Shown one piece after another: positions 12,601 to 44,342 of a stretch of 64,000 nucleotides of DNA. The notes beneath the pieces were generated by a model. It worked only from the letters and a program-made list of their open reading frames with translations, was not told the origin of the DNA and did no database searches. The stretch comes from Clostridia bacterium. Its GTDB lineage: Bacteria > Bacillota > Clostridia > Oscillospirales > CAG-272. The translations under genes were made by a program, and so were the position numbers. Each line of letters opens with the position of its first letter. The stretch's first letter is position 1. The stretch is from positions 41,802-105,801 of the forward strand of contig JAFTKJ010000013.1 of assembly GCA_017453305.1 (NCBI GenBank). Direction: 5' to 3'.

Positions 12601-15600
12601 CGCTGACGCCGAGATACGTGATAGAATTTTTGAATACGATGGAAGTAAGATCCTCGCAACCTGCAAATGCTTTATCGCCAACCGTATCGGTGTATGCAAC
12701 AAGCGTATCAATTGCGGTGTTTTCGAACATCTTTGCTGCAATTCTCGTCTTTTTACCAAGCTCAACGTTCTCCAAAAATTCGCATCCGGAGAAAGATCCG
12801 ATACCGGTAAGACCAAGATTGAGGAGCTTTACAGAGGAAAGTCTTGTGTTTCTGAACGCGTAATCACCGATTGCGTAAACCTCGGAGAGCTCAACGCCGC
12901 CAAGATCCTCGCAGGTAAGGCTTTCGCAGCCGTCAAACGCATTGTTCATAATTGCGTTTACGTCCTTGAGGTTGATGTTCTCAAGCACGTCACACTTGGA
13001 GAATGCGAAAGAGTTGATCGTCTTACACGATTCGGGGAGTGTTACGTCCGTAAGCTTTGTACAATTGTAGAATGCGTATTTTTCTACGACCTCGACGCCC
13101 TCGGGGATCACCACCGACGTCACCGTGTCGTTTTTCAAAGGCGTTTTCTTGTCATCGATATCGTAGTAACCGTTCTCATCCTTTTCTACTTCTTTCTCAT
13201 TGTCGAGGTCAAAGTGACAGAATGCATAGGCACCGATATAGAGAATACCCTCATCATCGGGAATGACAACGTCTCCGCCCTTACCCTTGTAAGCAATCAG
13301 CGTACGGTTTTCAATAATGAATTCGCTCTTAACCTCAACCGCACAGCGAGCCGCAAGGATGGAGGTTTTACCGTCAATGGTAATCTTCAGGGTAATTCTT
13401 GCATTACCCTCCGCCTCGGCGGTTACAACACCGTTTTCGTCAACCGTTGCAACCTTAGTGTTACTTGACGACCAGCTGAGCGTGTATCTTTCCTCGGAAA
13501 GATTCCAAGGCTCAAGAGCATAATTAAGCTTGACTTTCTCCGACGGGTAGCAGGAAATTGAGCAGTTTCCGTCGAAATACGAGAACGTATCGGTCAAGCC
13601 GATTTCGGAATAGTCGATATCGCTGTTAAATGCAAACAACGTATCGTAAGAGATAAATTCCAACGATTCGATCGGCACCTTGCCCGAGGATTCGGGATTG
13701 TCGATGACCTTATCGCTGACGGTGATGACAACGCTCTTGTAAAGCTGTTGATCGCCGTCCTTCCATGACGAGCCGGTAACCTTGATTACCGCCGTACCGG
13801 TTGCCATAGCCTCAATTTTGCCGTTCTTGATGGCAACGACGTCGGGATTGGAGGATTCCCAAGTCAGATTCTTAAGATAATCGGTCTCGATCGTTTCCGT
13901 GGTATCCTTGCGAACGAGCTGATGAGAAAGATCCATGGTTGCGCCGATATCGAGAGAAATTTCATCCTCCATGAACTCCAGATCAGAGTTATCGGTCTCG
14001 GGGAATGGAATGTAAGCGATGCCCGCGTTCATTGCATAGTCGTCAATGTAGACCGAAAGTCCCTCGGGCTTTGCGCTTCTTGCAATAATGTCGATGTAAT
14101 CGGTGATCTCAAGGGTAACCTTGGTTACTTCACCCTTGTTTTCCTGATATACGGGAATGGGATATTCGGAAAGAGAGGAGAAGGTCTTCTCTACCTCACC
14201 CTTGTTGTTGGTGAATTCGTAAAGCACTACGGGACGCAAAGACATTGCATAATGGTTATCGTAAACCATGATGTCAACGTAGTATCTGTACTCTTCGTTT
14301 GCCTTGTCGTATTCCTTTCTGAACTCTGCCCCGGTTACGGTAGGAGCCTCGTAGTCGATATAGAACGAGAACTGATACGTATCAACGGAGTTACGCGTGC
14401 CGCCATCCCAGTCGAGCTTTGCAGTCATCGTAACCTCATACTTGGTATTGTTGCTGCCAAATACCTCACCGGTCTCTCTGTTGATCATGTTCAGATCAAA
14501 GCGCGATACGTAGGGATAAGGGGCACCACCAAAGTGTGCCTTGTAGCAGTTATACTGCGTCTCGCTCCATACTTCCTCACCCGTAGAGGTGTCAACGATG
14601 GAAATATTCATTTCCTTAGCGCCTCTCAAAAGGCCGGTAAAGACACCGTAAATACCGGAAATAGCATCTGCAAAGTAAGAAACCGCAGCATGCTCTCTGG
14701 TACCGGGAATGGGAGTGTACTCTGTCTCGTCGATCTTATAAACAAAGCATCCGAGAGGCAGGAGGTAGTCGTAATAGTAGGAGCCAAGAGGAGTGGTTGC
14801 GTAGTAGTCAGCCTTGATCTTGTCATCCTCGTCAATTGCATTGTTGTGAGCCTCGGTCTCTTCCATGTAATAATCAAGGTCAAAGAGAGGAGCCTCGCCC
14901 CAGTCGCCGTAGAATGCAAGGAAAGGCGCATTCAAGTCAACACCGTTGGCGTCAGTATTATCAAAGGTTACAAAGCCTTCCACAAACATGCCGTTTGCAA
15001 AAGTAGAGTTGAGATAAGCCTTATCCTGTGCCGAAAGCTTCAGGGTGATGCTTACCTTTGCGGTAGCACCGCCTGCAACGGTAACAACACCGTCCTTAAG
15101 AGTTCCACCCTCGACCGCATACTCTGCCGTATTCGAAAGCAGATAAGCCATTTCAGCCACGTATTCAGGCTCGGACTCGGAAATACTCTCGGTCATGGTA
15201 ATGTTTCCGAGCGTATAGCTTACAGCCTTGTCAGAAAGATTTTTGAGATTGATGCTCATCGTGTAAACACCGGTTCTCATGGGGTCATCACCAAGCTCGA
15301 GCTTGGTCTTGCCGATGCCGTCCACGTAGAGGTATGCACCCGTGGTAGTGGACTTCTTAATATCTGCAATACCCGCACCCTGCTTTCTCGGAGAATAAGG
15401 ATTCCCCTTATTATCAAGAGCGATCGTTGCCGTGGACATGCACAGCTGGTTTACGAGGTCACGTACCTCAGTTACGCTCATTTCGGGATACTTTTCTTTT
15501 ACGTACTGTCTGATCAAAACGGAGATACCGCACATGTTGGGTGCTGCCATACTCGTTCCGCTAAGCTCCTCGTACTCACCGCCGGGAATTGCGGAAAGAA

Positions 15601-27438: not shown

Positions 27439-27905
27439 TTGACCGATTGATCGGCAATTGAGTCAACAAAACTCACACAAGCAGTGCTTGTACGTGAGGC
27501 GCTCTCCACTCGCACGAGTGGAGAGCGTGCTTGCGACGGGCACTCGAGGCTGCCGTATTGATAGCAAGCCTATTAATACGGCGGCCTCGGACTGCGAGTG
27601 GGAGTATTCAAAATCTTAAGGTACGCAATCTCTTAATGATATTTCCGAAGCATTTTTTTACGGGCGGGAATATTATACGGGCAGTTGCATTCCTTTCGTA
27701 CGTCCGGAAAATCATTTCGGCGGCACATCTGCCCGACACGTACGCCCGTCGGTAAAAAAGTGCTTTGGTACGATTGATACGACGGTTTTTACGTTCATCT
27801 TTTTTAATACGCGCGCGTGCGCGTGCGTATTATATTATTATTAAATATATTAAAATAAAATATATTAAAATCAAAATGCGCAGTAAGCGCAAGAAAGGAG
27901 AACAA
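27439..27905. repeat. Structured intergenic region with serial inverted repeats
   Basis: This gap of 467 bp contains no convincing gene but several stem-loops in a row: one at the stop codon of the giant gene, a 12-bp perfect stem (27500-27527), a nested hairpin at about 27541-27600, a larger imperfect inverted repeat at about 27648-27770, and a GC-rich stem (27806-27831, one mismatch). Two copies of a 14-nt AT-rich sequence (27843-27856, 27858-27871) follow, directly before the MoxR operon. No -35/-10 pair with consensus spacing was found. Confidence 0.7.
27500..27527 (+). terminator. Hairpin after the giant LRR gene
   Basis: Perfect 12-bp arms (27500-27511 and 27516-27527) enclose a 4-nt loop, 61 bp beyond the stop. 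The stem is strong but there is no T-run, so termination efficiency is uncertain; it may mark a processed 3' end. Confidence 0.5.
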
Positions 27906-28931
27906 ATGGATCCCAAAAAGTATTTCGCGAAATACGATTCGAGACTCAGATTTGAGGCAGTCTTAAAATCGCTTCTCCCCGGTCTTACAATTGGTCTTAC
28001 GGCAGCGTTCGTAATGGCAACTGTTTGCTGGTTCTGCGATTTTGGAGCAGGACTTTGGATCTCTCTCGCACTTCTCGTAGTCGCTTCCGCGGCAATGACG
28101 GTTTTCTTCTACTACAAGAAATTCAAACCGACTGCCGAGAGCAACGCAAGAAGAATTGACCGTTACGGTCTTGAAGAAAGACTGATTACGATGGTCGAGT
28201 ATGACGGCGACGACTCCTACATCGCCACCGCACAGCGTGAGGATGCAAAGCGCGAGCTTGCAAAGTTTGAGGCAAACACCATCAAGTTTAAGTTTTCGAC
28301 AAAGATCATCATCGTTTGCTCTATCGCGGCTGTTTTCGGACTTGGTATGACAACCGTTACAGGCCTTTGCGGCGCGGGAATCATCCCCAGCGGAATGGAG
28401 GTGCTTGATGCACTCATCCCCGATCCGCCTCCGGTTTATTACTCGGTTGAATACAGCGTAGACGACGAAGAATGCGGATTTATTCTCGGTGACACCAGCC
28501 AGGACATTTTGAAGGGCGAGAGCACGAAGCTCGTTGTTGCATTTGCCAACGATGGCTACATATTCAAGGCTTGGAGCGATGGCAACACAAGCCCCGCAAG
28601 AATTGACGAGGGCGTCGAGACCGCACTTGAATTCGAAGCAATCTTTATTCCCCTTGACGACTCGGGCGCTGATGAAACCGAGGACGAAGAGGAAGCAGAT
28701 GACGTTCCCGAAACCGACGGCGGCGCAGGTCCCGGCGGAAACGGAGACCCCTCTTCAGGTGGTGCTTCCGGAAAGTATGAAAGCTTCAACCAGATCATCA
28801 ACGGTGAAACCTTCTACAAGGAAGTTATCAAAGACTACCAAGAAGCAATTGAAGAAGCTCTTAAGGAAAACGACGAAGGTCTGACCGAAGAGCAAAAAGA
28901 AATTATTAAAAACTACATTGGAATTGTTTAA
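27906..28931 (+). CDS. Membrane protein with InlB-like extracellular domain, first gene of MoxR operon
   Basis: This 341-residue protein starts at the ATG at 27906 after AAAGGAG. Two transmembrane segments lie at about 20-70, then a cytoplasmic part with ARRIDRYGLEERLITMVEY, which resembles the DUF4175-type proteins found in MoxR/Bat clusters. A third membrane segment (about 120-145) leads to an outer domain with YSVDDEECGF and GYIFKAWSDGN, an InlB-type repeat pattern shared with the giant LRR protein. An acidic and Gly-rich linker and a helical C-terminus rich in Glu and Lys follow. The function is unknown. It lies 32 bp before moxR and is the likely membrane partner of the ATPase system. 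Confidence 0.85.
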   Translation: MDPKKYFAKYDSRLRFEAVLKSLLPGLTIGLTAAFVMATVCWFCDFGAGLWISLALLVVASAAMTVFFYYKKFKPTAESNARRIDRYGLEERLITMVEYDGDDSYIATAQREDAKRELAKFEANTIKFKFSTKIIIVCSIAAVFGLGMTTVTGLCGAGIIPSGMEVLDALIPDPPPVYYSVEYSVDDEECGFILGDTSQDILKGESTKLVVAFANDGYIFKAWSDGNTSPARIDEGVETALEFEAIFIPLDDSGADETEDEEEADDVPETDGGAGPGGNGDPSSGGASGKYESFNQIINGETFYKEVIKDYQEAIEEALKENDEGLTEEQKEIIKNYIGIV

Positions 28932-28963
28932 CTTAACAAAAGTTTGAAAGCGAGGTTAAAAAA

Positions 28964-30073
28964 ATGATTACAGAGCAGAATGTAAAGAAATTCAGCGAAC
29001 AGTGCAAAAACATTTACGCGCAGATCGGCCGTGACGTGATTGGTCAAAAGGAAGTTATCGAGGGTGCGGTTATCGCAATGATCGCCGGCGGTAACGTTCT
29101 TCTTGAGGGCGTTCCCGGAGTTGGTAAGACCCGTCTTGTAAGAACCCTTGGAAGAGTTTTCAGCCTTCCCTTCTCCAGAATTCAGTTTACCCCTGACTTG
29201 ATGCCTGCTGACGTTACCGGTACCAACATCATCGTTAAGGATGATAACGGCAACTCCAAGTTTGAGTTCCAGCCCGGTCCTATCTTCTCCAACATTATCC
29301 TTGCGGACGAAATCAACCGCGCAACCCCTAAGACTCAGTCGGCTCTGCTTGAGGCAATGCAGGAGCACACCGTTACCGTTATGGGTGTTTCGAGAAAGCT
29401 CGAAGAGCCCTTCTTCGTTCTTGCTACCCAGAACCCCATCGAGCAGGATGGTACCTATCCCCTGCCCGAGGCACAGATGGACCGTTTCATGTTCAAGATC
29501 ATCGTTAAGAACCCCTCCCTCGACGAGCTCCTCGAGATCGTTAATATGACCCAGAAGACCATGGCAGAAGTTGCAGACGCAGCTTGTACCGGCGAAGAGC
29601 TCCTTGAAATGAGAGCTACTGCAAACGCAATTCCCGTTGCTACCGAGGTTATGAAGTACGCTATGATGCTCTGCTCCGCTACCCATCCCGACAGCGAGTG
29701 CGCATCCGAGGCTGCAAAGAAGTACGTACGTTTGGGCGCTTCTCCCCGTGCAGGTCAGGCTCTGATCTCCGCCGCAAAGGTCAAGGCTCTTATGAATGGC
29801 AGATTCAACGTTTCCTACAGTGATATCAACGAACTCGCACTTCCCGTTCTCCGTCACCGTATCAAGCTCACCTTCGAGGCTGCTGCAGAAAGAATTTCCG
29901 CAGACGAGATCATCAATATGATCGTTGCTGAACTGATCGACAAATGTAAGATCGCTGCTGAAAAGCCCGTCATCAAGGCTAAGGCAGAGGCTACTGTTAC
30001 TACCGAAGACGAAACTGAAACCACCGAAAAGAATACCGACGCTAAGAAGCGCGGATTGTTTGGGAGAAAGTAA
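28964..30073 (+). CDS. MoxR-family AAA+ ATPase
   Basis: This 369-residue protein has the full MoxR pattern: Walker A GVPGVGKT (49-56), the FSRIQFTPDLMPADVTG segment, Walker B LADEINR with D115/E116, sensor 1 ATQNPIEQDGTYPLPEAQ, and the lid region GASPRAGQALISAAK. MoxR ATPases act as chaperones with DUF58 and vWA proteins to mature or activate partner proteins. The cluster order moxR-DUF58-vWA-vWA is the classical one. The C-terminal 40 residues are a charged Thr/Glu/Lys tail that is probably disordered. The last codons lie inside a 24-bp tandem duplication that continues to the next start. Confidence 0.95.
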   Translation: MITEQNVKKFSEQCKNIYAQIGRDVIGQKEVIEGAVIAMIAGGNVLLEGVPGVGKTRLVRTLGRVFSLPFSRIQFTPDLMPADVTGTNIIVKDDNGNSKFEFQPGPIFSNIILADEINRATPKTQSALLEAMQEHTVTVMGVSRKLEEPFFVLATQNPIEQDGTYPLPEAQMDRFMFKIIVKNPSLDELLEIVNMTQKTMAEVADAACTGEELLEMRATANAIPVATEVMKYAMMLCSATHPDSECASEAAKKYVRLGASPRAGQALISAAKVKALMNGRFNVSYSDINELALPVLRHRIKLTFEAAAERISADEIINMIVAELIDKCKIAAEKPVIKAKAEATVTTEDETETTEKNTDAKKRGLFGRK

Positions 30074-30102
30074 TCAATATTGTTTGGGAGAAAGTAATCA
30101 AT
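30055..30102 (+). repeat. Perfect 24-bp tandem duplication at the moxR/DUF58 junction
   Basis: The copies are 30055-30078 and 30079-30102. The first contains the end and stop codon of moxR; the second gives the next gene its own GGGAG ribosome site. It looks like a recent slippage event. Confidence 0.9.
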
Positions 30103-30103
30103 A

Positions 30104-31003
30104 ATGAAAGGTTCTTATTTAAACGATGCGTTTTTCAGTCGTCTCGAAACGCTCGCGCTTGAGCTTCGCGCCAATCTTGGCGGATTCTTCGGCGGTAAGC
30201 ATCTGGTCAGAACCTACGGTCAAACCGTAGAGTTCGCGGATTACCGCGAGTATCAGCTCGGCGACGATATACGCCGTATCGACTGGAATCTATACAGCCG
30301 TTTTGAAAAGTTCTTTCTCAAGCTCTTCACCGATGAACGACAGATGCATACCCAAATCTTCATAGATTGCTCAGCATCTATGGGTAAGGATATGCCCGAG
30401 AAGGCAAACTACACACTTGGTGTTGCCGCCGCACTCGGTTATCTCTCCGTTCACAATATGGATAAGGTCTCCTTCAAGCTGGTAAAAGGCGAAAAGGCAG
30501 AGGATCCTTTCGGTACGATCGTTGGTAAACGTTCGTTCTTCGATGCTATTAGCACGCTTGAGAATATTTCCTTTGAAAACGAGTCTGATATCTACAAGGC
30601 AGTCGTTGGCTGCCCCAACATAGGTTCTAACGACGGTCTTGCAGTCATTATTTCCGACTTCTTTACGGACAGTGACTGGAAGAAGGTCGTAGATTTCCTG
30701 TGTTTCAAGAAAAAACAGGTCCTTCTCTTACAGATCCTTACGCCCGACGAGATTGATCCCGCGTACACCGGACGCGTCAATTTGATCGACTCTGAGGCAG
30801 CAGCAATCGAGGATTCTAAAAACATGAGAATCAAGATAGACCGTGCGAATATCCTTGCATATGAGCACGCTCTTAGAGATATGCGCGAAGATCTTCGTTC
30901 CTTCTGCGCATCGCGAGGAGCCGATTATATATCGGTCTGCTGCGACCAACCGCTTGAGAGGATGCTGTTTAAAGAATTACTGAAGGTTGGTATTATGGCA
31001 TGA
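30104..31003 (+). CDS. DUF58 (vWA-like) domain protein
   Basis: This 299-residue cytoplasmic protein is of the DUF58 family. The family signature FADYREYQLGDDIRRIDWNLY is complete at about residues 45-65. A vWA-like metal-site motif D88-x-S-x-S (DCSAS) and a later SDFFTDSD follow. DUF58 proteins are constant partners of MoxR ATPases and are thought to present client proteins. The start at 30104 uses the duplicated GGGAGAAAG site. The gene overlaps the next by ATGA (31000-31003), so the two are translationally coupled. Confidence 0.93.
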   Translation: MKGSYLNDAFFSRLETLALELRANLGGFFGGKHLVRTYGQTVEFADYREYQLGDDIRRIDWNLYSRFEKFFLKLFTDERQMHTQIFIDCSASMGKDMPEKANYTLGVAAALGYLSVHNMDKVSFKLVKGEKAEDPFGTIVGKRSFFDAISTLENISFENESDIYKAVVGCPNIGSNDGLAVIISDFFTDSDWKKVVDFLCFKKKQVLLLQILTPDEIDPAYTGRVNLIDSEAAAIEDSKNMRIKIDRANILAYEHALRDMREDLRSFCASRGADYISVCCDQPLERMLFKELLKVGIMA

Positions 31004-32940
31004 GTTTATTAACCCCGTTAGGTTTATTGGGTCTGATTGGTTTGATCGTGCTGCTGATCATCTATATCATCAAGCCCAACTACCAAAACAAAGTCATTTC
31101 CAGTACGTTCGTCTGGAATTTGAGTTTAAAGTACAGAAAAAAGAAGATACCGATCAATAAGCTGCGCAACATTCTTTTGATTATCTGCCAGGTTCTTATT
31201 ATCTCTATCTCCGCATTCATCATTGCGCAACCCTTTATTCCCGAGCAGGAAGAAAGCAAGAGCGCAGAAAAGATCATGATCATCGACGTTTCCGCTTCCA
31301 TGCTGACCTCAACCGGAGGCGAAACCCGTATCGAACGCGCGGTGGACAAAGCCCTTGAATATGCAAAGGCTACCCTTGAGAAGGAAGATCAAAAGGTCTC
31401 CGTAATCGTTGCATCGGATAAGCCCTACTACCTCGTACAAGAGGTTGGCAGTGACCGTGCCGGTGAGGTTTACGAAGCACTCAACTCCCTTGTGGATCCC
31501 TCCTCCGAGGATAGAAAATTCACCTACGCAGAGCCCGATATTGCTAAGGCAATCTCTCTTGCCGAGGAGATCACCGCCTTTACCCCTGACGTTGAGGTGC
31601 TTCTTTACACGGACACCACCTACATCGACAAGGGCAAAGTAAAGGTTGTTGACGTTTCAGAGGATACTGAGTGGAATGCCGCAGTTCTTGACGTAAGAGC
31701 AAATCTGATTGAGAACTGGTACACCTTTGAGGTGGACGTTGTAACCTACGGCATTGACGCTGACTTGAGAGTATTCGTTGATATTTCCGGCACAAACGTC
31801 GGAGGTGATACGGTCAGCATCGAGACCGTTGCAAGATGCTATAACGGCAACGTCACCACGCTCGTCTTTTCTACTTACGACGAGGATGCCGCCAAGGATA
31901 ATCCCAATATAGTAGCTCCTGACGAGATCGTAAACATCTTCTCGTACGAGTCTATCAGCGTTCGCATTGACGAAAGCGATTCTCTCAGCTACGACAACAT
32001 TTATTATCTTTACGGCGGTACCAAGCCCGAGCTGAAGGTTCAGTACTACAGCTCTCGTCCCAACAACTTCTTCAGTAGTGCGCTCATGGTTCTCCGTGAT
32101 CAGCTCAAAGGACGCTGGGACGTGGAGATCACCGAAGTGAAGAAGGATCAAACCCCCGAAGTGGAAGGCTTTGACGTCTACATCTTCGAGCATGAGCTCC
32201 CCCCCACTCTTCCCATTGACGGTGTAGTTATCATCATGGACCCCAACTACATCCCCGCAGGAATGGATATGAAGCTTGGAGCTTATTGGATGCCCTTTGC
32301 AGGCACCTGGAAATTCGCAGCTGAGGATCCCCATCCCATCATGCAGAACATCAATCCCGAAAACATTGAGGTAACGCTTTACCGCGGTGTTGAGGATTAC
32401 GGTGACTTTACACCGATCATGTCCTGCGACGGTTCTCCCGTTGTATTCGTAAAGGATGAGATCGACGCAAAGATGGTCGTTATGAACTTTGATATTCACT
32501 ATTCGAACATCTCGATGATCCAGGAATTCCCCTTGTTCTTGTATAACATTTTCGAATACTTCACCCCTGCCACCATCAGAGACTACGTATTTGACATCAA
32601 CGATACCGTAGAACTGAACTCCCGTGGCGACGAACTCTTCCTCGTAGGCCCTGAGACCGATATCGACTTTGACTCTCTCCCTGCAGAGCACACGGTCGTA
32701 GCACCCGGTGTATACACCGCAACGCAGGTCCTTATTTCGGGTGAGGAAGCAGTTGAAAACTTTTACGTTAAGCTCCCCGCAAGCGAAAGTAATACCGAGC
32801 TTACGGAGGACGTACTCACAAATCCCTTCTTCTATGAGGAGGAGGACAATAACGATCTCGATTTGCTGCTTTACTTTGCAATCGCGCTCGTTGCCCTGCT
32901 CTTTATTGAATGGTGGTTAAAATCTCGCGAGCAATTATAG
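31000..32940 (+). CDS. BatA-type membrane protein with vWA domain
   Basis: This 646-residue protein starts with two transmembrane segments in the BatA arrangement (LLGLIGLIVLLIIYIIK and ILLIICQVLIISISAFIIA). A vWA domain follows whose MIDAS starts at D96-V-S-A-S; the metal site is DxSxS with a later Thr/Asp. A long extracellular beta-rich region (about 260-600) and a C-terminal transmembrane segment (about 620-640, ending in EWWLKSREQL) complete it. The vWA domain should face outside. Family knowledge links such proteins to MoxR/DUF58 complexes at the membrane. The ligand is unknown. Confidence 0.88.
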   Translation: MSLLTPLGLLGLIGLIVLLIIYIIKPNYQNKVISSTFVWNLSLKYRKKKIPINKLRNILLIICQVLIISISAFIIAQPFIPEQEESKSAEKIMIIDVSASMLTSTGGETRIERAVDKALEYAKATLEKEDQKVSVIVASDKPYYLVQEVGSDRAGEVYEALNSLVDPSSEDRKFTYAEPDIAKAISLAEEITAFTPDVEVLLYTDTTYIDKGKVKVVDVSEDTEWNAAVLDVRANLIENWYTFEVDVVTYGIDADLRVFVDISGTNVGGDTVSIETVARCYNGNVTTLVFSTYDEDAAKDNPNIVAPDEIVNIFSYESISVRIDESDSLSYDNIYYLYGGTKPELKVQYYSSRPNNFFSSALMVLRDQLKGRWDVEITEVKKDQTPEVEGFDVYIFEHELPPTLPIDGVVIIMDPNYIPAGMDMKLGAYWMPFAGTWKFAAEDPHPIMQNINPENIEVTLYRGVEDYGDFTPIMSCDGSPVVFVKDEIDAKMVVMNFDIHYSNISMIQEFPLFLYNIFEYFTPATIRDYVFDINDTVELNSRGDELFLVGPETDIDFDSLPAEHTVVAPGVYTATQVLISGEEAVENFYVKLPASESNTELTEDVLTNPFFYEEEDNNDLDLLLYFAIALVALLFIEWWLKSREQL

Positions 32941-32955
32941 GAATAGGAAAGAAAA

Positions 32956-35685
32956 ATGACGAATTTTAAAATTATTTTTTCAAATCCGTGGCTGTTACTT
33001 CTTCTCATTCCTGCAATAGGTCTGACGTTGCTCACCTATTTCAGAATGAACAAGCGGTACCGGTTCACAAGAAACCACATAACCTCCATTGTTCTTCATA
33101 TGGTTATCATGGTTCTCTCTATAGCCGTGCTTGCGGGCATGATTTTCGGATACAGCATTCCGAACAACGATAACGAGATCATTCTTCTCGTTGACGCATC
33201 GTACAGCACGAGCGATTCCGAGGATGAAGTTGATGAATTCATCAGAGACGTCATCGACAGCACCGATACAATGTTTGAGCTTGGTATTGTTACCTTCGGC
33301 TTTGATCAGGTGTACGCATCGGAGCTTTCGAGCGACACCTCGGAAACCTACACAAATTACATCAAAGCAGAGCTTCCCGATACGACCGCTACGGATATTG
33401 CCTCTGCACTCACCTACACATCTACACTTTTCAGAAATCCCGAAAGTGCTAAGATCGTTCTCATCACCGACGCCATCGAAACCGACGGCGCAGCAACCAA
33501 CGTCATCAAATCCATCTCGGCACAGGGAATTATGGTTGATACCGTATACTTCCCCGATGATCAGGACGATAACAAGTCGGAGGTTCAGCTGAACTCTCTG
33601 GCTGAAATCAAGGATAAGATCGTCGTTGGTCAAAAGTTCAACTTTGATCTCTCTCTCCAAAGCTCCTACGAGGGTTCTGCAAAGATTACCCCCTACGACA
33701 ACGGTGTTGCAGGAGAGGCAATTGAGATCAACCTCAAGGAAGGCGTACAAACCGTTACCATTCCCTACGCATTCGTCGTCCCGGGAATGCACGTGATGTC
33801 CTTCGAGATCGAATCGGAAGATGATACCCTTACACAAAACAATACCTACCTTTCGTATTTCTACCTCGATATTTACGATAAGATCCTCGTAATTGAGAGC
33901 ATCGAAAACGAATCCGCCTCCCTTTGCGATATGCTGAAGGACGAGCTGAACGTAAAGGTATTGAACATTGAGGACACCGAAAACCTTCCCAAGACCGTTG
34001 ATGACCTCAGAGCATACGACGAGGTAATTCTTTGCAATATCTCGAACGAAAATATGCCCGAGGGCTTCGACCAGATCCTCTTCACCTACGTCAATGATAT
34101 CGGCGGCGGTCTCTTTACCGTGTGCGGAAACAAGGAAACTCCTGACTCGGGAGACGAATGGACCGCAAATGCCTACACCTTTGACGACATGAACAACACG
34201 CTGTATCAGCAAATGCTTCCCCTCCAGGCAATCAACTACACGCCTCCCGTTGCGGTTATGATCATCATAGATACTTCGGGATCGATGTGGTATGCAGGTC
34301 AGGAAAAGTATGAGGAAAGTAAGCTTTACTACGCTCAGCAGGGTGCTGAGGCTTGCCTCTCTGCCCTTTCCGAAAGAGACTACGTCGGCGTTATGACGCT
34401 GGGTACCTCCTTCTCTGAAGAAATTGAGTTAACTCCTCGTACACAGCGTGAAAAGATCCTTTCGGCAATTGCACTGCTTTCCGAAAAGGAAGAAAACCTG
34501 AACGGTGGAACCAACTTCTCTCTTGCATTCGAGCGTGCAGGTAAGGCTCTACTTGCCAACACCTCGGTTGAGAGACGGCACATCATCGTCGTTACCGACG
34601 GTGAACCCGGTGATACCGAAAAAGAATACGGTGCGTTCATGAAGGAAAATGCCGAGGCAGGCATTACGATGTCTATCGTAGGCGTCCAGGCTTCCTCCTC
34701 TGCAGAGACCTTGATGAAAAAGATCCTTGTTGAATACGCAAACGTTCCCGAAACGAACTTCCACAACGTTACCGACATCGAGCAAGTCCCCGAAGCGATG
34801 AGAGAAGACCTTGAGGTCCCCGAAATCAAGGACGTAAACTACAAACCGTTTACTCCCAAGATTGCAAACTACAGCCTGGTAGTAAACGGCATCGAGCAGG
34901 AAAACATGCCTGAGCTCGACGGCTTCTACGGTGTAAAAGCAAAGAAGGACGCAACCGTCATTCTGATGGGTGAATATACTCCCATTTACGCCGAGTGGAA
35001 GTTGGGTCGCGGCAGAGTTGGAAGCTTTGCGTGTGACCTGAACGGAACCTGGTCTGCTGACTTTATTTCAAGCACAGTTGGTGCAACAATTGTAAATAAC
35101 ATCGTCACCTCGCTCTTCCCCTCTGAAAATATCAGAACCAAGAGCATTGATGCCGAGGTTACCGGAAACAACTACTTGACTCAGCTCAGCGTATTTACCG
35201 ATCTTGCCGAAGGTGAGATCATCGAGGCAATTGTCACGAGTCCCGCAACCGATGAGGTTTCCGAAAAGGTCCAGACCTTCACCGCAGGCGCAAATGAAGG
35301 CTACTCGAGATTTACCTTTGCGGTTACTACCCCCGGCATCCACACCATCGTCGTAAACAGAAAGACAGCCGACGGAACCGTTGTTGCTACTACCACTATC
35401 CAAAAGGTGCTTTCTTACTCTCAGGAATACAACGTATTCGCTGATACCGACGTTGCCGCAGCTCTTTGCGCAAACCTTGCAAAGTACGGCGACGGTGAGG
35501 TCATCAACACCGCTTACGAGGTATTCGACGATGCTACCAAGTACTTCGAAAGAACTTATGATCCGAAGATTCCCTTTATCATCGCAGTCATCGTTCTCTT
35601 CCTCCTTGACGTAGCAGTACGTAAGTTCAAGTTTAAGTGGATCCATGAGATCATTCGCGACAGAAAAAAGCGTCAGGCAAAATAA
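32956..35685 (+). CDS. BatA-type membrane protein with two vWA domains
   Basis: This 909-residue protein has two N-terminal membrane segments and then two vWA domains: D80-A-S-Y-S and D439-T-S-G-S, both with DxSxS metal-site motifs. Between them lies a beta-rich part and an alpha/beta segment (VLVIESIENESASLCDML, VILCNISNENMP, GGGLFTVCG) that resembles the class I glutamine-amidotransferase-like fold found in related vWA proteins. A further beta-rich domain and a C-terminal transmembrane segment (IPFIIAVIVLFLLDVAV) precede a basic tail. AGGAAAG stands before the ATG. Two vWA modules in one chain suggest a multi-ligand scaffold for the surface. Confidence 0.88.
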   Translation: MTNFKIIFSNPWLLLLLIPAIGLTLLTYFRMNKRYRFTRNHITSIVLHMVIMVLSIAVLAGMIFGYSIPNNDNEIILLVDASYSTSDSEDEVDEFIRDVIDSTDTMFELGIVTFGFDQVYASELSSDTSETYTNYIKAELPDTTATDIASALTYTSTLFRNPESAKIVLITDAIETDGAATNVIKSISAQGIMVDTVYFPDDQDDNKSEVQLNSLAEIKDKIVVGQKFNFDLSLQSSYEGSAKITPYDNGVAGEAIEINLKEGVQTVTIPYAFVVPGMHVMSFEIESEDDTLTQNNTYLSYFYLDIYDKILVIESIENESASLCDMLKDELNVKVLNIEDTENLPKTVDDLRAYDEVILCNISNENMPEGFDQILFTYVNDIGGGLFTVCGNKETPDSGDEWTANAYTFDDMNNTLYQQMLPLQAINYTPPVAVMIIIDTSGSMWYAGQEKYEESKLYYAQQGAEACLSALSERDYVGVMTLGTSFSEEIELTPRTQREKILSAIALLSEKEENLNGGTNFSLAFERAGKALLANTSVERRHIIVVTDGEPGDTEKEYGAFMKENAEAGITMSIVGVQASSSAETLMKKILVEYANVPETNFHNVTDIEQVPEAMREDLEVPEIKDVNYKPFTPKIANYSLVVNGIEQENMPELDGFYGVKAKKDATVILMGEYTPIYAEWKLGRGRVGSFACDLNGTWSADFISSTVGATIVNNIVTSLFPSENIRTKSIDAEVTGNNYLTQLSVFTDLAEGEIIEAIVTSPATDEVSEKVQTFTAGANEGYSRFTFAVTTPGIHTIVVNRKTADGTVVATTTIQKVLSYSQEYNVFADTDVAAALCANLAKYGDGEVINTAYEVFDDATKYFERTYDPKIPFIIAVIVLFLLDVAVRKFKFKWIHEIIRDRKKRQAK

Positions 35686-35701
35686 CAGAAGGGAGAATAA
35701 A

Positions 35702-38554
35702 ATGAAAAAATTAATAAAATTATTATGCGTTATCAGCTTATTCGTCCTTTGCGTTACGATGCTTGCTTCCTGCGGCGAAAAGCTCAACAAGCCCTCCGGA
35801 CTCATTTTCAATGAAGAAAAACTCACAATTCAATGGAATAAGGTTCCGGGAGCAAAATCTTACTCGATCCTCATTTCCGGTGAAGAGCGTGAAAAAACCA
35901 CAAAATCCAATTTCATCGCCCTTGACTATCTCGAGGCGGGCACTTACGATATCAAAATCAGAGCAAACGGAACGGGTGATGAAACCCGCAACTCCGATTG
36001 GGCGGTTTATGAGGATTTTGTAAGACCCGAAGAAAATGGATTGAAATATGCCTTGATCAACAACGATACCGAATATGCCGTAACGGGCGGCGGAACCGCC
36101 GAGGGTGACGTTATCATCCCCGCAAAGCACCGCAACAAGCCCGTTACCGCAATTGCGGATAAGGCATTCTACAACAACAGCAAGATCACCACCATTACCG
36201 TTGGCGAAAACGTAAAAACGATTGGAGAAAAAGCTTTTACCAAGAGTGCAAACCTCACCGAGGTCATCATTCCCGAGGGAGTGGTTTCCATCGGCTCTTA
36301 CGCATTCCAAAGCTGTAAGCTCCTCTCTACCATCACGATTCCCGATACGGTTACTGCGATCAATCCCTTTACCTTCTCTCGATGCGATGCACTGAAAACA
36401 GTCAATTTCGGTAATTCCATCACAACCATCGGCGAATATGCCTTCTCGAGCTGCATTGCTCTTGAAAAGATCATTCTGCCCGACACCATCACCTCTATCG
36501 GTCAATACTCCTTCTCCGACTGTAAAGCGGCAACCGAGCTTGTTCTCGGTCAAAACACGAAGGATATCGCAGCGTATGCATTCTACAACTGCGAGTCGGT
36601 TGCTTCGCTGACACTGACTCCTAAGATCGAGTATATCAGAAACAGCGCGTTTGGAAATCTCAAGCTCATCACCAAAATCGTGATTCCCAACACGGTGCAA
36701 AAAATCGAGTACGGTGCATTTCAGGGCTGCGTTGCAGTGGAGGAAATCACTCTCGGTACCGGTCTTACCGCAATCGGCAGCGAGGCATTCTCAGGAACAA
36801 AGCCTTATGAAGCCGCTGAATTGATCTTCTGCGTCGACGGATGGCTCCTTGAGGTAAAGGATAAGGAAATCACCGAGCTTGGATGTACCGGTGGACAGCT
36901 CACTGTAGAAAAAGGAACCGAAACCACCCTGATTGATTTGTCCGCAACGATTCTCGGTTTTGCAGATTTTGCATTGCAAAACTGCAAGCTCCTTGAAAGC
37001 ATTTCCGTCTCCGGCGTTCAGTACATTGGTAGAGCAACCTTCTACAACTGCGAAAAGCTTTGGGAAGCAATTTTCGACAATGCACTGATCTCCATCGGTG
37101 AGAACGCTTTCCGTGACTGCAAAAATCTTGCCGACATCACCCTGAAGGAAAATCTTTTGACCATTGGCAACTATGCTTTCATGGGTTGCACAAAGATCAA
37201 TGAGATCGATATTCCCGATTCGGTAACCTCCATTGGCGGATATGCATTCTACAATACTTACAAGTATACCTCCACAAAGAGCGGCGCGATCTACGTTGAC
37301 GACTGGGTGGTTGGTATGGCGGCACCTCCCATGATCCCCGGATATTACGAAATGCTCAACATTGAAGAGGGCACCAGAGGTATTGCAAACTATGCCTTCT
37401 ACGGCATTCCCGTTTTCTATACCTACATGCCGGATTCGGTTGAGATCATCGGTAAGGGAGCATTCTACGGCAACGCATTCCCCTTCACTGCTCCTATCAC
37501 GATCCGTCTTTCCGAAAAGGTCAAGTACATCGGTGATTATGCATTCTACAAATGTCAAAACTGGGTATTCAGTGATGGAAGTGAAATGACGGAGTTGGTA
37601 ATTCCCAACACCGTTGAGTACATTGGACGCTCTGCATTCTACAATTGCCAATACATTACCTCCCTCACGATTCCCGGCTCGGTAAAAACGATTGGTAAGT
37701 ACGCATTCTACAACTGCCAGAACCTTGGACACAGCCAGCTTTATATGGAGGGCTCCGAGGAACCGATCATCGGTACCGTCACCCTTGGCGAGGGTATCCA
37801 ATCCATCGGCGATCAGGCATTCAGAAATTGCATTGGTATTACCGATATCGTAATTCCCAACAGTGTAACCGACCTTGGAAATAAGACCTTCTTCAATTGT
37901 CCGAAGCTCAAGAGCGTAACTCTTGGAACAGGTCTTACGGAGCTCAAGGACTACACCTTCTATAAGTGTACTGCCCTTGAAACCGTAACCATTCCCGCAA
38001 ACGTCAAAAAGATCGGCGCGTATGCCTTCCGAGGCAATACAAGCCTTGCATCTGTTGATCTTGGAAGCGTTGAAGTGATCGACCATCACGCGTTCCTTGG
38101 TTGCTCCGCTCTTAAGAGCATCAACCTTCCCTCTACTGTTACGGATGTAAACGACTTTGCATTCAGAGGATGCACCGCCGCTACCTCCGTCACAATTCCC
38201 GACACGGTTACCTTTGTTGGAAAGCATGCATTCTACGGAATGGTCAATGCAACCCTTTACATCGAGTCGGCAACCGTTCCCACAGAATGGAATAAATTCT
38301 TCAATAGTACCTTCAGACCAGTGATCTTTGGCTGTGAGCTTTCCGATGACGCAAGCTACGTTGTATCCTTCACTAAGAATGCAAACTCCGTGATCAACGA
38401 AAACACCTTCAACGGAACCTCTGCACCTGCACGTGCAGGTTACGAATTTGTAGGATGGTCTGCATCCGGTACGATCTACTCCGCAAAAGACGTTAACACA
38501 GCTCCCGATGGAACGGTTCTTTACGCAGAGTGGGAAGAAATAACCAATAATTAA
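35702..38554 (+). CDS. BspA-type leucine-rich repeat lipoprotein
   Basis: This 950-residue lipoprotein has the lipobox LASC with the lipidated cysteine at C24, after the basic start MKKLIKLLC. A Fn3-like module (about 35-110, LTIQWNKVPGAKSYSILI) precedes a long series of BspA-type LRR_5 repeats (about 125-870, IGxYAFxxCxxL). An InlB B-type repeat (GYEFVGWSASGTIYSAKDVN) closes the protein. It is anchored by its lipid rather than by a peptide segment. AAGGGAG precedes the ATG, 16 bp after the preceding stop, so it belongs to the MoxR operon. Its repeats are similar in type to those of both giant proteins. Confidence 0.93.
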   Translation: MKKLIKLLCVISLFVLCVTMLASCGEKLNKPSGLIFNEEKLTIQWNKVPGAKSYSILISGEEREKTTKSNFIALDYLEAGTYDIKIRANGTGDETRNSDWAVYEDFVRPEENGLKYALINNDTEYAVTGGGTAEGDVIIPAKHRNKPVTAIADKAFYNNSKITTITVGENVKTIGEKAFTKSANLTEVIIPEGVVSIGSYAFQSCKLLSTITIPDTVTAINPFTFSRCDALKTVNFGNSITTIGEYAFSSCIALEKIILPDTITSIGQYSFSDCKAATELVLGQNTKDIAAYAFYNCESVASLTLTPKIEYIRNSAFGNLKLITKIVIPNTVQKIEYGAFQGCVAVEEITLGTGLTAIGSEAFSGTKPYEAAELIFCVDGWLLEVKDKEITELGCTGGQLTVEKGTETTLIDLSATILGFADFALQNCKLLESISVSGVQYIGRATFYNCEKLWEAIFDNALISIGENAFRDCKNLADITLKENLLTIGNYAFMGCTKINEIDIPDSVTSIGGYAFYNTYKYTSTKSGAIYVDDWVVGMAAPPMIPGYYEMLNIEEGTRGIANYAFYGIPVFYTYMPDSVEIIGKGAFYGNAFPFTAPITIRLSEKVKYIGDYAFYKCQNWVFSDGSEMTELVIPNTVEYIGRSAFYNCQYITSLTIPGSVKTIGKYAFYNCQNLGHSQLYMEGSEEPIIGTVTLGEGIQSIGDQAFRNCIGITDIVIPNSVTDLGNKTFFNCPKLKSVTLGTGLTELKDYTFYKCTALETVTIPANVKKIGAYAFRGNTSLASVDLGSVEVIDHHAFLGCSALKSINLPSTVTDVNDFAFRGCTAATSVTIPDTVTFVGKHAFYGMVNATLYIESATVPTEWNKFFNSTFRPVIFGCELSDDASYVVSFTKNANSVINENTFNGTSAPARAGYEFVGWSASGTIYSAKDVNTAPDGTVLYAEWEEITNN

Positions 38555-38565
38555 GGTGGATAAGT

Positions 38566-41500
38566 ATGAGAAATAACAAACTGATATTCAAATTATTACT
38601 GGTTGTTATGCTTTGCATCCTTTCTCTCGCAACCCTTTCGGGTTGCGGGGGTGAGGAAGTGAGCGAGCTCTTCATCTCTACGAAGGATGCTCCTCGCGCA
38701 ACCTACGTTGCTGGTCAGGAGCTCGACCTTTCCACGGGTAAACTGACCTACATCCTGAACGGTGAGGAAAGTGACCTTCCTCTCACCGCCGAAGGCGTTA
38801 GCGTAAGCGGATATAACAAAAATCAGCTCGGCGAGCAGACTGTTACCGTTTCCTACATGGAAATGACCGCTGAATTCAAGGTTAACGTCATTCCTAGAAT
38901 CAAGGCTGAAAGCTTTGAAACAAAATACTTTATCGAAGATGAATTCGATAAGTCCAAGGGTAAGCTCGTTGTTGCAAGAGACGACGGTACAACCTTCTCC
39001 GTCAACATGAGCAACGATAAGGTTTCCCTTGTTTCCTTTGACTCTGCTACCGCAGGCGAGAAGGAGGTTAAGGTAAAGTATTCCGCAGGCTCGGCTGATT
39101 ACGAGTGCACGTTTAAGGTAAACGTTTACGGTATTGCAAGCGTAACCCTCAAAACCCCCGATAAGATCTCTTATCAGAGCCACGATACCGAGCTGGATTT
39201 CAGCGGCGGATATCTTAACGTTAAGTCTACCGAGGAAAGCCTTTCCAAGTTCGTTCCGCTGACCAACCCTAATGTCCAGGTCAATGGCTTCGATATTTCG
39301 CAGGCTACCAAGGAACACATGGAGACACCTTTGAAGCAAACGATCACCATCACTTACGGCGGTCAAACCTTCACCTACGATATCTCCATTACCTACAGCG
39401 GTGTTTCTCTTGTAAACGATTTTGCAAAGATGTTTGAGGGCTTTGATTGGGACGCTGAGGACGCTACGATCGATACCGAAAAGAGCGACGCTACCATTGA
39501 GGCTATCAAGGCTTACTACAAGCTTTCCAAGGCGCAGAGAGCACAAATTTCAACCGAGAACACAAATACACTCGTTCGTGCAACCGCAATCGTCGTTTCC
39601 CTGAACTACAGAGACGCCTTTAAGACCTACGAAAACACCATCGAGATTGGAAGTAATCTTTCCATTGTGCTCGTTGCATCCTCTTATGAGGAGACCCTCG
39701 TTGACCTTGAAAAGCTCAAGAACGAGGACGATACACTCAACGTTTACGCAGACATTCTCCGTAAAATCCTTGAGGATTTCCCCAAGGTTGTCGTTGCTCA
39801 GGGTAAGACCGTTGAACAGATCGTTGCCGTTCACTCGAACGACATCCACGATTTCCTCGTTCGTATTTTCGAGCATCTCACCGAGCTTTACAAGACCCTT
39901 GAAAACGTCCCGGTCAACTGGACCGCAGAGGACCTCAAGGCTAATGAAGATGCAATCAGAGTAGCTATTAACACCATTAAGACCGAAGAGTTCGTTAAGA
40001 CCGGTTATTCCTACCTCTACAACGATATCCTCTCCAAATGGCGTGAAAAGGACGATTATCTCGACATCCTTTACTACTATTACATCCACGTCAAGAACGA
40101 CGCAGAAAACCTCTTTGATGATATGTTCCAAAAGGTTCCCCTCCCCGGAATTATGCAGGAATGGTATGAACATATCGTCAATGCTTCCAGCGAGGTGAAA
40201 TGGATGCAGGGCAACGAATCCGGCGACGCTTATCTTGCCGACGTTTCCTTCTTCATGTACTACTACCGCGAAGCAATGAAGGCAACTCAAGCCATCAAGG
40301 ATTCCGGCAACCAGCTGTATCTCGACATTTACGAGGCTCTTGAGATCGATAATATCAACAACGTAAACATCAAAGTGGAAGGTTACGGTTACTTCTATCA
40401 ATGCGGTCCTATGTTGGATTCCGAAAGATTTATGACCCTTTGGGAAAAGTATCTCGACCTGGTTCACATTCTTGCAACCGATACGCTGGATAAGACTAAG
40501 AACGATGCCGAATTCAAGCTTGCTTTGGAGGCGTTCAACGCACTCTCCCCTGCCGAGCTTTACGGCTTCCTGACCTCTTTGAACTTCCAATACGATGATG
40601 CAAGAGGTAGCGTTCTCGTTCTTGAATATGGTGAAAACCCCAAGAACATGTTCATCGACATAATGGGTCAGTACTGCTACCACGTTTTGAACAACGCTTG
40701 TGAGCCCTTGTTCGTCGATCTCCTCGTAGCAATGGAGAAATACGCCCTGCTCGGCGCTCCCGATGCTAAGCCGTCTACGCTCGCGGACTTTGAGACCGCG
40801 ATGGCAGAGGTAATCAAGAAGTACAATGCGCTTTCCACAACCGACCAAAAGAACTTCGACACCTATCTTGGAACCTCCTATAACAAGTATCTGAACCTCT
40901 ACAACGTTTGCAAGAACGGTGCGGCAGATCTTGGTACAAACGCAGCCACCTTTGATGAGCTGGCACTCATTATGAACCGCTTCCACGCTGTTCTTGAGCT
41001 CTTCAGCTCGAAGGAAGAGGGCGTTCAGAATGAAGGTACCATGGCACTTCTCGTAGCCCTCTACGAGCGTGCTAAGACCCTTTACGAAACGATCCTCGCA
41101 ACCGAAGATCCTAACGTAATCGCAGCCCTCCACGCAAAGAACTATACCGTTGACGGTGAGGAGCTTCCTCTTGACCTTGCATTTGCTCGCGTTCGTTTCG
41201 TCGCCATCTACAACATCATGCTCAATTACGTGATCCAGGACGGTGATGACGAGACTTACGATCCCAGAGTTTGGGACAACTACTCCATCACCAATGCCGA
41301 CGAACTCCTGCTCAAGGTTATCGACGTCCTTTACGGTCAGTACGACAGCAATGCCCCCAAGCTCTCCAAAGAGGCAATGCTTGCAATTATGGCTGACGTT
41401 CGTGCAATTATGATCTCCGACATCGAAAGCGTAAGAATCTTCTCCTCTATCCAAGGTGACGTTTATTACTACGCCGGAGTGACTGCATTCCTCAAGGAAG

Positions 41501-41721
41501 CCCTCTCCGATGACGGCGATGCACTTGCCGACAAGCTCGTTGCGATCGAAAAGATCTACCGCAATTATCTCTTCAGCGAAAAAGAAGAGTACATGACCAG
41601 CTTTAAGACCTCTGTTGAGGAACTCAAGGAGGCTTACGCCTCTGCTTCTGACGCAGACAAGGCTTATTTGGATGCTATGTATACTTTCTACGTAAGCATC
41701 TATGATGCACTTGAAGCTTAA
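38566..41721 (+). CDS. Large lipoprotein with Ig-like repeats and alpha-helical region
   Basis: This 1051-residue lipoprotein has the lipobox LSGC (C27). Residues about 35-290 form three Ig-like Big_3-type modules (VAGQELDLSTGKLTYILNG, YFIEDEFDKSKGKLVVARDD, SYQSHDTELDFSGGYLNV). The remaining 750 residues are mostly alpha-helical, rich in Glu, Lys and aromatic residues, and unlike any family I recognise. No catalytic motif is seen. It is the last gene of the MoxR operon, with AAGGTGG before the ATG and 11 bp after the preceding stop. A terminator follows. It may be a client or an outer partner of the vWA proteins. Confidence 0.88.
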   Translation: MRNNKLIFKLLLVVMLCILSLATLSGCGGEEVSELFISTKDAPRATYVAGQELDLSTGKLTYILNGEESDLPLTAEGVSVSGYNKNQLGEQTVTVSYMEMTAEFKVNVIPRIKAESFETKYFIEDEFDKSKGKLVVARDDGTTFSVNMSNDKVSLVSFDSATAGEKEVKVKYSAGSADYECTFKVNVYGIASVTLKTPDKISYQSHDTELDFSGGYLNVKSTEESLSKFVPLTNPNVQVNGFDISQATKEHMETPLKQTITITYGGQTFTYDISITYSGVSLVNDFAKMFEGFDWDAEDATIDTEKSDATIEAIKAYYKLSKAQRAQISTENTNTLVRATAIVVSLNYRDAFKTYENTIEIGSNLSIVLVASSYEETLVDLEKLKNEDDTLNVYADILRKILEDFPKVVVAQGKTVEQIVAVHSNDIHDFLVRIFEHLTELYKTLENVPVNWTAEDLKANEDAIRVAINTIKTEEFVKTGYSYLYNDILSKWREKDDYLDILYYYYIHVKNDAENLFDDMFQKVPLPGIMQEWYEHIVNASSEVKWMQGNESGDAYLADVSFFMYYYREAMKATQAIKDSGNQLYLDIYEALEIDNINNVNIKVEGYGYFYQCGPMLDSERFMTLWEKYLDLVHILATDTLDKTKNDAEFKLALEAFNALSPAELYGFLTSLNFQYDDARGSVLVLEYGENPKNMFIDIMGQYCYHVLNNACEPLFVDLLVAMEKYALLGAPDAKPSTLADFETAMAEVIKKYNALSTTDQKNFDTYLGTSYNKYLNLYNVCKNGAADLGTNAATFDELALIMNRFHAVLELFSSKEEGVQNEGTMALLVALYERAKTLYETILATEDPNVIAALHAKNYTVDGEELPLDLAFARVRFVAIYNIMLNYVIQDGDDETYDPRVWDNYSITNADELLLKVIDVLYGQYDSNAPKLSKEAMLAIMADVRAIMISDIESVRIFSSIQGDVYYYAGVTAFLKEALSDDGDALADKLVAIEKIYRNYLFSEKEEYMTSFKTSVEELKEAYASASDADKAYLDAMYTFYVSIYDALEA

Positions 41722-41729
41722 TTACTAAA

Positions 41730-41783
41730 AAAAGAACGGCTTTGCCGGGGAATGGAACCCATTCCCTGCAAAACCGTTCTTTT
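41730..41783 (+). terminator. Terminator of the MoxR operon
   Basis: Arms 41730-41739 and 41774-41783 pair perfectly, with further pairing inside (GGGAATGG with CATTCCC), and end in a T-run. It lies 9 bp after the last stop of the operon. Confidence 0.85.
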
Positions 41784-41809
41784 GATTTTAAGATGGACAA
41801 CATGTGACA

Positions 41810-43159: not shown

Positions 43160-44337
43160 CAGTTCTCCCCTCCTTCCTCATCGTACAGATGACAGAATAC
43201 GCTATGCGTTTCGGTGATCTTGATTTCCTTTGGATAAGGCTTTCCTTCGCAGCCTGCGCATTTTTTGCCGCATCTGCCCTTGAAAAGACACTCGTCCGGA
43301 ATGTTGATCGGGTTTGGAACATTACCGGGGATGCTGTAGAGCTCCTCTGCCGCATCAGAAGCCAGCGAAGGCTTCGCCTTTTGAATACCTACCGTGTAAG
43401 GATGCATCGGGTTATCGAAGATCTCGTAAACCGTACCCTTTTCCACGATCTTACCCGCATACATGACCACTACGTAATCTGCCATTTCGGCAACGACTCC
43501 AAGGTCGTGCGTGATCAGCATAACAGATGCCCCGCATTCGCCCTGAACGCGCTTGAGCAGCTTGAGGATCTGGCTTTGAATGGTAACGTCAAGAGCCGTC
43601 GTAGGCTCGTCCGCGATGATCAGTTTTGGATTTCCTGTAAGCGCAATTGCGATCATCACTCTCTGGCGCATACCGCCCGAAAGCTGGTGAGGATAATAAT
43701 CGATCATGGTTTCGGGCATAGGAATGCCAACCAGGGTCAGCATATCGATTGCCTTCTTTCTCGCCTGCTCCTTGGTAGCCTCCGGATGGTTGAGATAAAA
43801 CACCTCTTCAATCTGATAACCAACGGTAAATACGGGGTTCAAGCTGGTCATAGGCTCCTGGAATATCATCGAGATATCCTTACCTCTGATGCGGCACATG
43901 TCAAGTGTCGGCATCTTTGTTACGTCATAGCACTTGTCTCTTCCCTTTTCATCCTTGCCAAGCTCGTCGGAGTTAAATCTGATCTGACCGCCGACAACCT
44001 GTCCCTGGGGTGCCTGAACAAGCTGCATAATGGAAAGGCTGGTTACGCTCTTTCCGCATCCGGACTCTCCTACAAGTCCGACGATGGAATCCTTCGGGAT
44101 ATCGAAGGAGATCTTGTTTACCGAGCGAACAACACCGTTATCCGTGTAGAAGAAGGTCTCAAGATCTTCAATCTCAAGCACGTTGTCGTTCGACTTCATA
44201 ACGGTGGTAAATTGCTCGGGGGTTTTCTTTTCTCTTTTGATCTTCTCGAGACGTTTCATCTCGCGAAGGTTGCTCTTTATGATCTCACGGCTTTCCTTTA
44301 AGGTGAGAAGGTTTGGATTTTTCATCTTCTTGCTCAT
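43159..44337 (-). CDS. oppD: Oligopeptide ABC transporter ATPase OppD
   Basis: This 392-residue ATPase has Walker A GESGCGKS (90-97), Q-loop IFQEPMTSL, signature LSGGMRQR, Walker [13 protein letters not shown] and [12 protein letters not shown]. The C-terminal cysteine-rich extension [14 protein letters not shown] is typical of Opp/Dpp ATPases. A charged N-terminal extension of about 50 residues is longer than usual. I chose ATG 44337, 6 bp after AGAGGTG; ATG 44343 and GTG 44346 are alternatives. It follows oppC by 5 bp. Confidence 0.94.
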
Positions 44338-44342
44338 GTTCA

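Follow-up and report, generated by a model that had tools for sequence, protein, structure and literature searches.

The locus described here lies in a 64,000-nucleotide (nt) stretch of DNA, the window of this analysis (contig JAFTKJ010000013.1, positions 41,802 to 105,801 of the forward strand, assembly GCA_017453305.1), from a Clostridia bacterium of the order Oscillospirales. It harbors a cassette of genes for a MoxR ATPase, a DUF58 protein, membrane-anchored von Willebrand factor A (vWA) proteins and large surface proteins. Seven co-directional genes of the plus strand, A to G, span positions 27906-41721, with five gaps of 11-32 bp and one 4-bp overlap; the successive intergenic distances from A to G are 32, 30, -4 (an ATGA overlap between C and D), 15, 16 and 11 nt, as given in a preliminary description of this DNA (gaps of at most 32 bp or an ATGA overlap). 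A gene for a giant leucine-rich repeat (LRR) protein (18325-27438, plus strand) sits 467 nt 5' of A, and this spacing makes it probably a separate transcript from the A-G operon. Pfam domains called on the seven A-G proteins with an E-value cut-off of 0.01 agree with the identities first proposed for B to G, namely MoxR, DUF58, two BatA/vWA proteins, an LRR lipoprotein and an immunoglobulin (Ig)-like/helical lipoprotein.

The first five genes encode the core proteins. A (27906..28931, 341 residues) is a membrane protein with three hydrophobic segments; the window's copy has no Pfam match at the cut-off, and a search with its profile against the PDB returns nothing at E 0.1. It had been described as DUF4175-like, a label resting on one sub-threshold match (E 0.014) in one of ten orthologues. 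An InlB-type ectodomain is better supported: all ten aligned orthologues match Flg_new_2, a divergent InlB B-repeat, at E ≤0.05 (best 4.7e-7), the window's own A being a weak case (E 0.014). B (28964..30073, 369 residues) is a MoxR AAA+ ATPase devoid of hydrophobic segments (AAA_3, 1.7e-62; PDB 2r44, 6.4e-74). It scores above the bpMoxR cut-off (38 versus 27 bits), but far higher with AAA_3 (210 bits). C (30104..31003, 299 residues), starting 30 nt 3' of the MoxR gene, is a DUF58 protein (4.4e-30), also without hydrophobic segment and without a PDB profile match at E 0.1. It carries a DxSxS motif of the metal-ion-dependent adhesion site (MIDAS) type; D88, S90, S92 and D185 do not vary across 50 sequences, namely the window's own plus 49 out of 78 that were listed.

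D (31000..32940, 646 residues) is a BatA-type membrane-anchored vWA protein (BatA, 4e-8; VWA_2, 5.4e-9), in which D96 and S98 of the DxSxS motif are invariant and S100 nearly so among 14 sequences. E (32956..35685, 909 residues) is likewise membrane-anchored and possesses two vWA domains (VWA_2, 1.3e-25 over two stretches), each with a DxSxS motif: among 11 sequences, D80 is invariant and S82 and S84 nearly so in the first domain, while D439, S441, S443, T519 and D548 are invariant in the second. The profile of E matches BatB over this second vWA domain (PDB 3ibs, 2.3e-8), as well as 4jdu (8.8e-7). Three of the four DxSxS motifs thus belong to the membrane-anchored D and E, and one to C. Simple hydropathy places hydrophobic segments at both the N- and C-terminal ends of D and E. 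From the placement of charges, and by the precedent of the BatA-type protein BB0173, whose vWA domain is periplasmic (PMC5700661), D and E are predicted to expose their vWA parts, and A its C-terminal part, to the outside of the cell.

The surface proteins follow, or precede, this core. F (35702..38554, 950 residues) is a BspA-type LRR lipoprotein (LRR_5, 3.6e-150) with a List_Bact repeat near its C-terminus (TIGR02543, 3e-5), and G (38566..41721, 1051 residues) is a helical-looking lipoprotein with Big_3 domains (3e-16). Both N-termini read as lipoprotein-type signals, with computed hydrophobic segments. Big_3 domains are found in 10 of 11 G orthologues; G also has a long region without Pfam match. 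Profile matches of G in the PDB cover the Ig-like N-terminal part only and amount to three chains, 2l7y (4.4e-19) and those of the LRR proteins 4fdw and 4fd0 (~0.002). The giant protein (3037 residues) has an N-terminal membrane anchor, LRR_5 repeats (1.2e-278, 18 stretches), List_Bact/InlB-type repeats (Flg_new, 8.6e-29, three stretches) and an Fn3-like stretch below the cut-off. F combines LRR_5 repeats with a lipoprotein signal, the two features of BspA-type proteins, whereas the window's giant protein has the repeats but a transmembrane-type anchor. Across nine giant sequences, conservation is highest over the first ~1700 residues, and the C-termini differ. The earlier proposal that both lipoproteins share the InlB/LRR modules of the giant protein therefore holds for F and fails for G, which has no LRR match in Pfam. 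A 2948-residue open frame antisense to the giant gene (18388-27234, minus strand) is probably an effect of repeat composition and no gene.

The recurrence of the cassette was followed with the DUF58 protein C as query, the window's genome being included in the counts. Matches occur in 9 of 35 genomes of the genus (E 1e-60), 68 of 395 of the family (E 1e-40), 7 of 394 of the order (E 1e-40) and 6 of 391 of the class (E 1e-60); by the last two counts, the cassette is rare at the order and class levels. MoxR orthologues with 61-85% identity sit in several locus types among the first 60 relatives, and a locus is here termed cassette-type when its C is at least 62% identical to that of the window. 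In the 14 family loci read, the cassette type displays, up to the contig ends, the order giant LRR gene, A, B, C, D, E, F, G. The upstream LRR protein is found in nine of ten readable loci; the exception, G480b, shows at its contig end no more than a brief stretch of helical repeats, similar on visual inspection to those at the C-termini of the giant proteins of G667 and G693. F is present in 12 of 12. In G030 it comes after an extra E-like gene (L038:10317-11951, minus strand; the same locus as L120), whose 545-residue product has a lipoprotein-like signal and is 38% identical to E over 421 residues. The slot after F can be read in eleven loci and holds G in all but G344, where a longer protein that matches the G profile takes its place.

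A wider set was assembled by scanning named contigs with C alone and keeping the best 80 of 128 relatives (65-82% identity); 12 of these 80 contigs had already supplied proteins to the profiles. The hosts are Clostridia, mostly metagenome-assembled genomes (MAGs), many with titles that point to animal guts, and include Candidatus Borkfalkia, Candidatus Gallimonas and Pumilibacter intestinalis. In every one of the 70 testable loci, F is the best-scoring profile directly after E (60/60 without the profile-source contigs). An LRR protein lies directly upstream of A in 54 of 61 (47/53 without these contigs), where any LRR match of at least 35 bits was accepted, so that some are short contig ends (79 residues and 36-37 bits in L184). 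G directly follows F in 33 of 67 (24/58), and where no G match follows (34 loci), the slot is occupied in 16 by another co-directional gene with a lipoprotein-like signal. The contig of Pumilibacter intestinalis strain CLA-AA-M10 (L166) runs from a truncated B to F, with no G next to it. The ectodomain of A is InlB-type, by domain profile, in 59 of the 62 complete A genes of the named cassette loci. Co-occurrence with the gene order, as proposed at the outset, is hence complete for F, largely so for the upstream LRR protein, and for G confirmed in the window's family and partial in the wider set. Chance adjacency was considered and is rejected: with 19 LRR_5 frames in the window's genome, an LRR neighbor is uncommon per gene, yet both positions are kept at the above frequencies.

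As comparators, 48 MoxR-DUF58-vWA loci with a more distant C were read, comprising 42 of the 77 family places listed and six from the genus and order searches. F directly after E is seen in none of the 44 that could be judged, and an LRR protein directly upstream in none of 45; two of the former and five of the latter are weak negatives, as their remaining sequence is without a gene of 100 residues or more. LRR matches are found farther off in some comparators (G468, G431, G050). The InlB-type ectodomain of A occurs in 1 of 46, and the few printed A sequences look helical by eye. After E, 21 of the 48 carry a different conserved lipoprotein of 477-634 residues, and 20 have similarity, local at the least, to a second lipoprotein that is mostly larger and usually placed after the first. 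Examples of ~530 residues for the comparator lipoproteins are L044:11014-12615 (minus strand) and L104:11415-13031 (plus strand), of which the one scanned has no Pfam match. Both families are absent from the 80 cassette loci at E 1e-5. These distinct lipoproteins indicate that more than one branch of MoxR-DUF58-vWA machines has surface lipoproteins of its own. Both locus types are found within single genomes, such as G667, G744 and G004. The positions of F and of the LRR protein being kept in the cassette loci and empty of them in the comparators, the set is a real conserved association.

The converse search, with the G profile over the 395 family genomes, returns near full-length matches, each spanning 93% of the model or more, at 13 places in 11 genomes, all in cassettes; three of these places are cassette copies that are cut by a contig end or lack MoxR. 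Ten of the 11 genomes are exactly those with a C match of at least 62%. The eleventh, G660, was examined as a possible case of G without the cassette and rejected, since both its G genes lie in cassettes cut off at contig ends and C fragments are present. The remaining matches are short and cover the Ig-like part. In G693, contig C85 (L195/L196) carries a second cassette in the order LRR protein, A, D, E, F, G, without MoxR and DUF58 and with a gap of 39 nt between A and D. The other cassette of this genome, read from the giant gene to D, has both. The layout of C85 could be an assembly error, though both sides are in order.

The genes of the cassette also diverge together. Alignment-distance matrices were compared over the 45 loci with A-F and the giant gene (18 loci for G), using 300 permutations. 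Correlations reach 0.78 for D-E, 0.75 for both D-F and E-F, 0.69 for A-F, 0.66 for D-giant and 0.61 for F-giant, the best permutation being at most 0.21. The mean corrected similarity is 0.80 for MoxR, 0.34 for D, 0.38 for E, 0.32 for F and 0.21 for G (the latter over 18 loci). Such correlations reflect inheritance as a unit and do not by themselves separate it from functional coupling.

With moderate confidence, we read the locus as a conserved cassette whose MoxR and vWA proteins would form an ATP-driven machine that spans the envelope and is dedicated to the surface proteins encoded with it. The linkage is strong, and the machine may well have a role in their assembly. This reading draws on the F and LRR positions, kept in cassette loci and at zero in comparators; on the matching ectodomain type of A, the distances of F that track those of D and E, and the kept DxSxS motifs; on the near full-length G in all ten family genomes with C at or above 62%; on the 21 comparators with a different lipoprotein after E; and on flanks that mostly differ between loci, since only 12 of 51 flanking open reading frames (12 loci) match one in another locus. 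Of the dedicated surface-protein system proposed earlier, the conserved association is borne out, with its absence at these positions in the 48 distant loci, while MoxR assembling or displaying clients is what it may imply.

Hydropathy, the kept DxSxS motifs and the NorQD and BB0173 precedents suggest that MoxR and DUF58 form a motor in the cytosol, which A, D and E would connect to the surface proteins. The MoxR ring (B) would work in the cytosol with the soluble vWA-like protein C. Their contact is expected from NorQD, in which a vWA domain plugs the MoxR ring and the MIDAS is proposed to contact the target (PMC9976466, PMC13036017). The membrane proteins A, D and E would carry the connection across the membrane, and their outward domains (one of InlB type in A, and in D and E together three vWA domains that carry metal-site motifs) would hold or remodel F, the giant protein and, where present, G. 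In this way, these proteins may build up an array on the cell surface that serves adhesion or contact with a matrix. All three are taken here as candidate clients or partners on which the machine would act; they could equally be parts of it.

Several results weigh against a dedicated machine. The source assembly is 80% complete with 5.4% contamination, and none of the nine genus genomes that are at least 90% complete has a DUF58 match. Since the 80 loci share a common ancestral cassette, their counts are not independent events, and the 12 profile-source contigs are among them. In 34 of 67 loci no G is recognised (34 of 58 once these contigs are set aside), and its distances correlate poorly with those of B (0.22, below the best permutation of 0.37) and marginally with those of the giant gene (0.36 versus 0.35). 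The upstream LRR protein is missed in seven of 61 loci, L135 (the G480b locus), L144, L155, L165, L167, L176 and L185. BspA-type LRR proteins are common in the window's genome, with 19 LRR_5 open frames, most of them without a neighboring MoxR. Finally, the C85 copy of G693, lacking both genes, indicates that MoxR and DUF58 are not needed in cis.

F and G might instead be permanent parts of the machine, as outer receptors or a scaffold of a Bat-like complex, leaving the giant LRR protein as sole client or no specific client at all. F is indeed tied to the core no less firmly than D and E are, being present in 70 of 70 loci and having distances that track both, and the MoxR/DUF58-less copy of G693 keeps A, D, E, F and G together. 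The fast divergence of F and G relative to MoxR is more like that of displayed surface proteins, a weak argument since D and A are also fast, and the other lipoprotein-like genes in 16 of 34 slots without G also fit displayed proteins better. We consider this alternative possible, though on the unlikely side.

An unlikely explanation is shared regulation only, the MoxR-DUF58-vWA set having a general envelope or stress function and the surface genes sharing its transcript without physical dependence. Bat-type genes are tied to the oxygen response and to envelope phenotypes in other bacteria (PMC5700661), and the giant gene, 467 nt away and probably transcribed separately, would fit. A general function predicts varied neighbors, however, while all 70 testable loci have an LRR partner, and A changes its type of ectodomain along with the partners. 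Very unlikely is a horizontally moved adhesion island, whose genes would be co-inherited with weak functional coupling. Its spread is patchy, with C matches of at least 62% in 10 of 395 family genomes and, outside the window's order, in three genomes of another family (f90, loci not read), and the flanks mostly differ; but the gene order, the A ectodomain and the type of partner have remained in step despite the divergence of D, E and F.

MoxR ATPases are molecular motors regarded as chaperone-like. MoxR-DUF58-vWA operons are widespread, and the clients of most of them are, to our knowledge, not established. As far as is known, the targets of NorQ/NorD, CbbQ/CbbO and RavA/ViaA are enzymes reached from the cytosolic side. 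In these systems, as proposed for the cassette, a MoxR ATPase acts via a vWA partner, which makes them a mechanistic precedent (PMC9976466, PMC13036017); in the cassette, however, the likely targets lie on the outer side of the membrane, and membrane-anchored proteins carry three of its four DxSxS motifs. With the Bat operons of Bacteroides, Leptospira and Borrelia (BB0170-BB0176), the cassette has in common the MoxR-DUF58-BatA-vWA core, and it displays these features of it: a MoxR of the AAA_3 family, an adjacent DUF58 protein, a BatA-type protein with an N-terminal double anchor and a vWA domain, and a second vWA membrane protein. It differs in the added LRR and Ig-like lipoproteins, the InlB-type ectodomain protein and the giant LRR neighbor. 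Bat operons list tetratricopeptide repeat (TPR) partner proteins (PMC5700661). As none of the seven A-G proteins matches TPR at E 0.01, the cassette is filed with the MoxR-DUF58-vWA core and not with the Bat operons proper.

The PFNA operon of Bifidobacterium (pkb2, fn3, aaa-atp/MoxR, duf58 and tgm) encodes a large surface protein, FN3, linked to adhesion, and its authors consider MoxR as possibly involved in the folding of FN3 (PMC8430577, PMC6803598). Both loci place MoxR and DUF58 beside a large surface protein, a resemblance in the way of working only: in place of FN3, the cassette encodes BatA/vWA membrane proteins along with lipoproteins of LRR and Ig-like type and, unlike PFNA, it has no Pfam match to a kinase or a transglutaminase among the seven proteins. 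No beta-propeller match is found among them either, as would be expected of the MoxR-vWA-beta-propeller ternary systems (bpMoxR; related conflict systems in PMC7159879). Anti-phage defence was also considered and is unsupported, PADLOC returning four weak matches, all to B (best 6.6e-7). A literature search covering one open library returned no paper on the LRR cassette. The idea of surface clients for MoxR is thus already known from PFNA, and the built-in LRR and Ig-like surface partners are a new variation on MoxR-DUF58-vWA.

Two hairpins flank the operon. In the gap behind the giant gene, a plus-strand hairpin (27439..27560; -57.3 kcal/mol, z -5.5, with 0 of 200 shuffles as stable) has no T run after its stem and is a possible transcript boundary. 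A terminator-like hairpin 3' of G (41730..41783, plus strand) closes the operon, judging from the sequence and fold of the 69-nt stretch 41722-41790 (-33.4 kcal/mol, z -7.9, 0 of 200 shuffles as good); it is not among the terminators listed by a simple scan. Divergent to the giant gene lies a facultative member, a large subtilase of 2603 residues (9644..17455, minus strand; S8 and PA, with Big_2 and LRR_5). Counterparts stand in the equivalent divergent position in G744 (83% identity) and G522 (64%), both cut by the end of the sequence fetched, and none was seen in the other upstream flanks read. On the other side, 3' of the cassette, an oligopeptide ABC transporter-like gene set with a binding lipoprotein (42125-49557, minus strand) is recognised from its translations, and two of its genes have relatives (80-82%) upstream of the cassette in G750. 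The source assembly (2.63 Mb in 119 contigs) is probably a MAG.

The candidate partners of this putative machine are encoded at the locus itself, at a place kept across many species and together with a matching A ectodomain, so that the question of machine and target becomes directly testable. The natural cassette without MoxR and DUF58 is a ready comparison, and Pumilibacter intestinalis CLA-AA-M10, titled as a strain and not as a MAG, may offer a cultured host. More tentatively, gut Clostridia may possess "motorised" surface arrays, in which one MoxR-DUF58 motor would drive vWA adaptors in the membrane, and these in turn would put together or actively rearrange giant anchored surface proteins on the outside of the cell. 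The ectodomain of A would then set which surface proteins are served, InlB/LRR here and helical-looking elsewhere, one subset having a separate pair of lipoproteins. Because G693 carries a second cassette without MoxR, one motor may even serve more than one array in trans.

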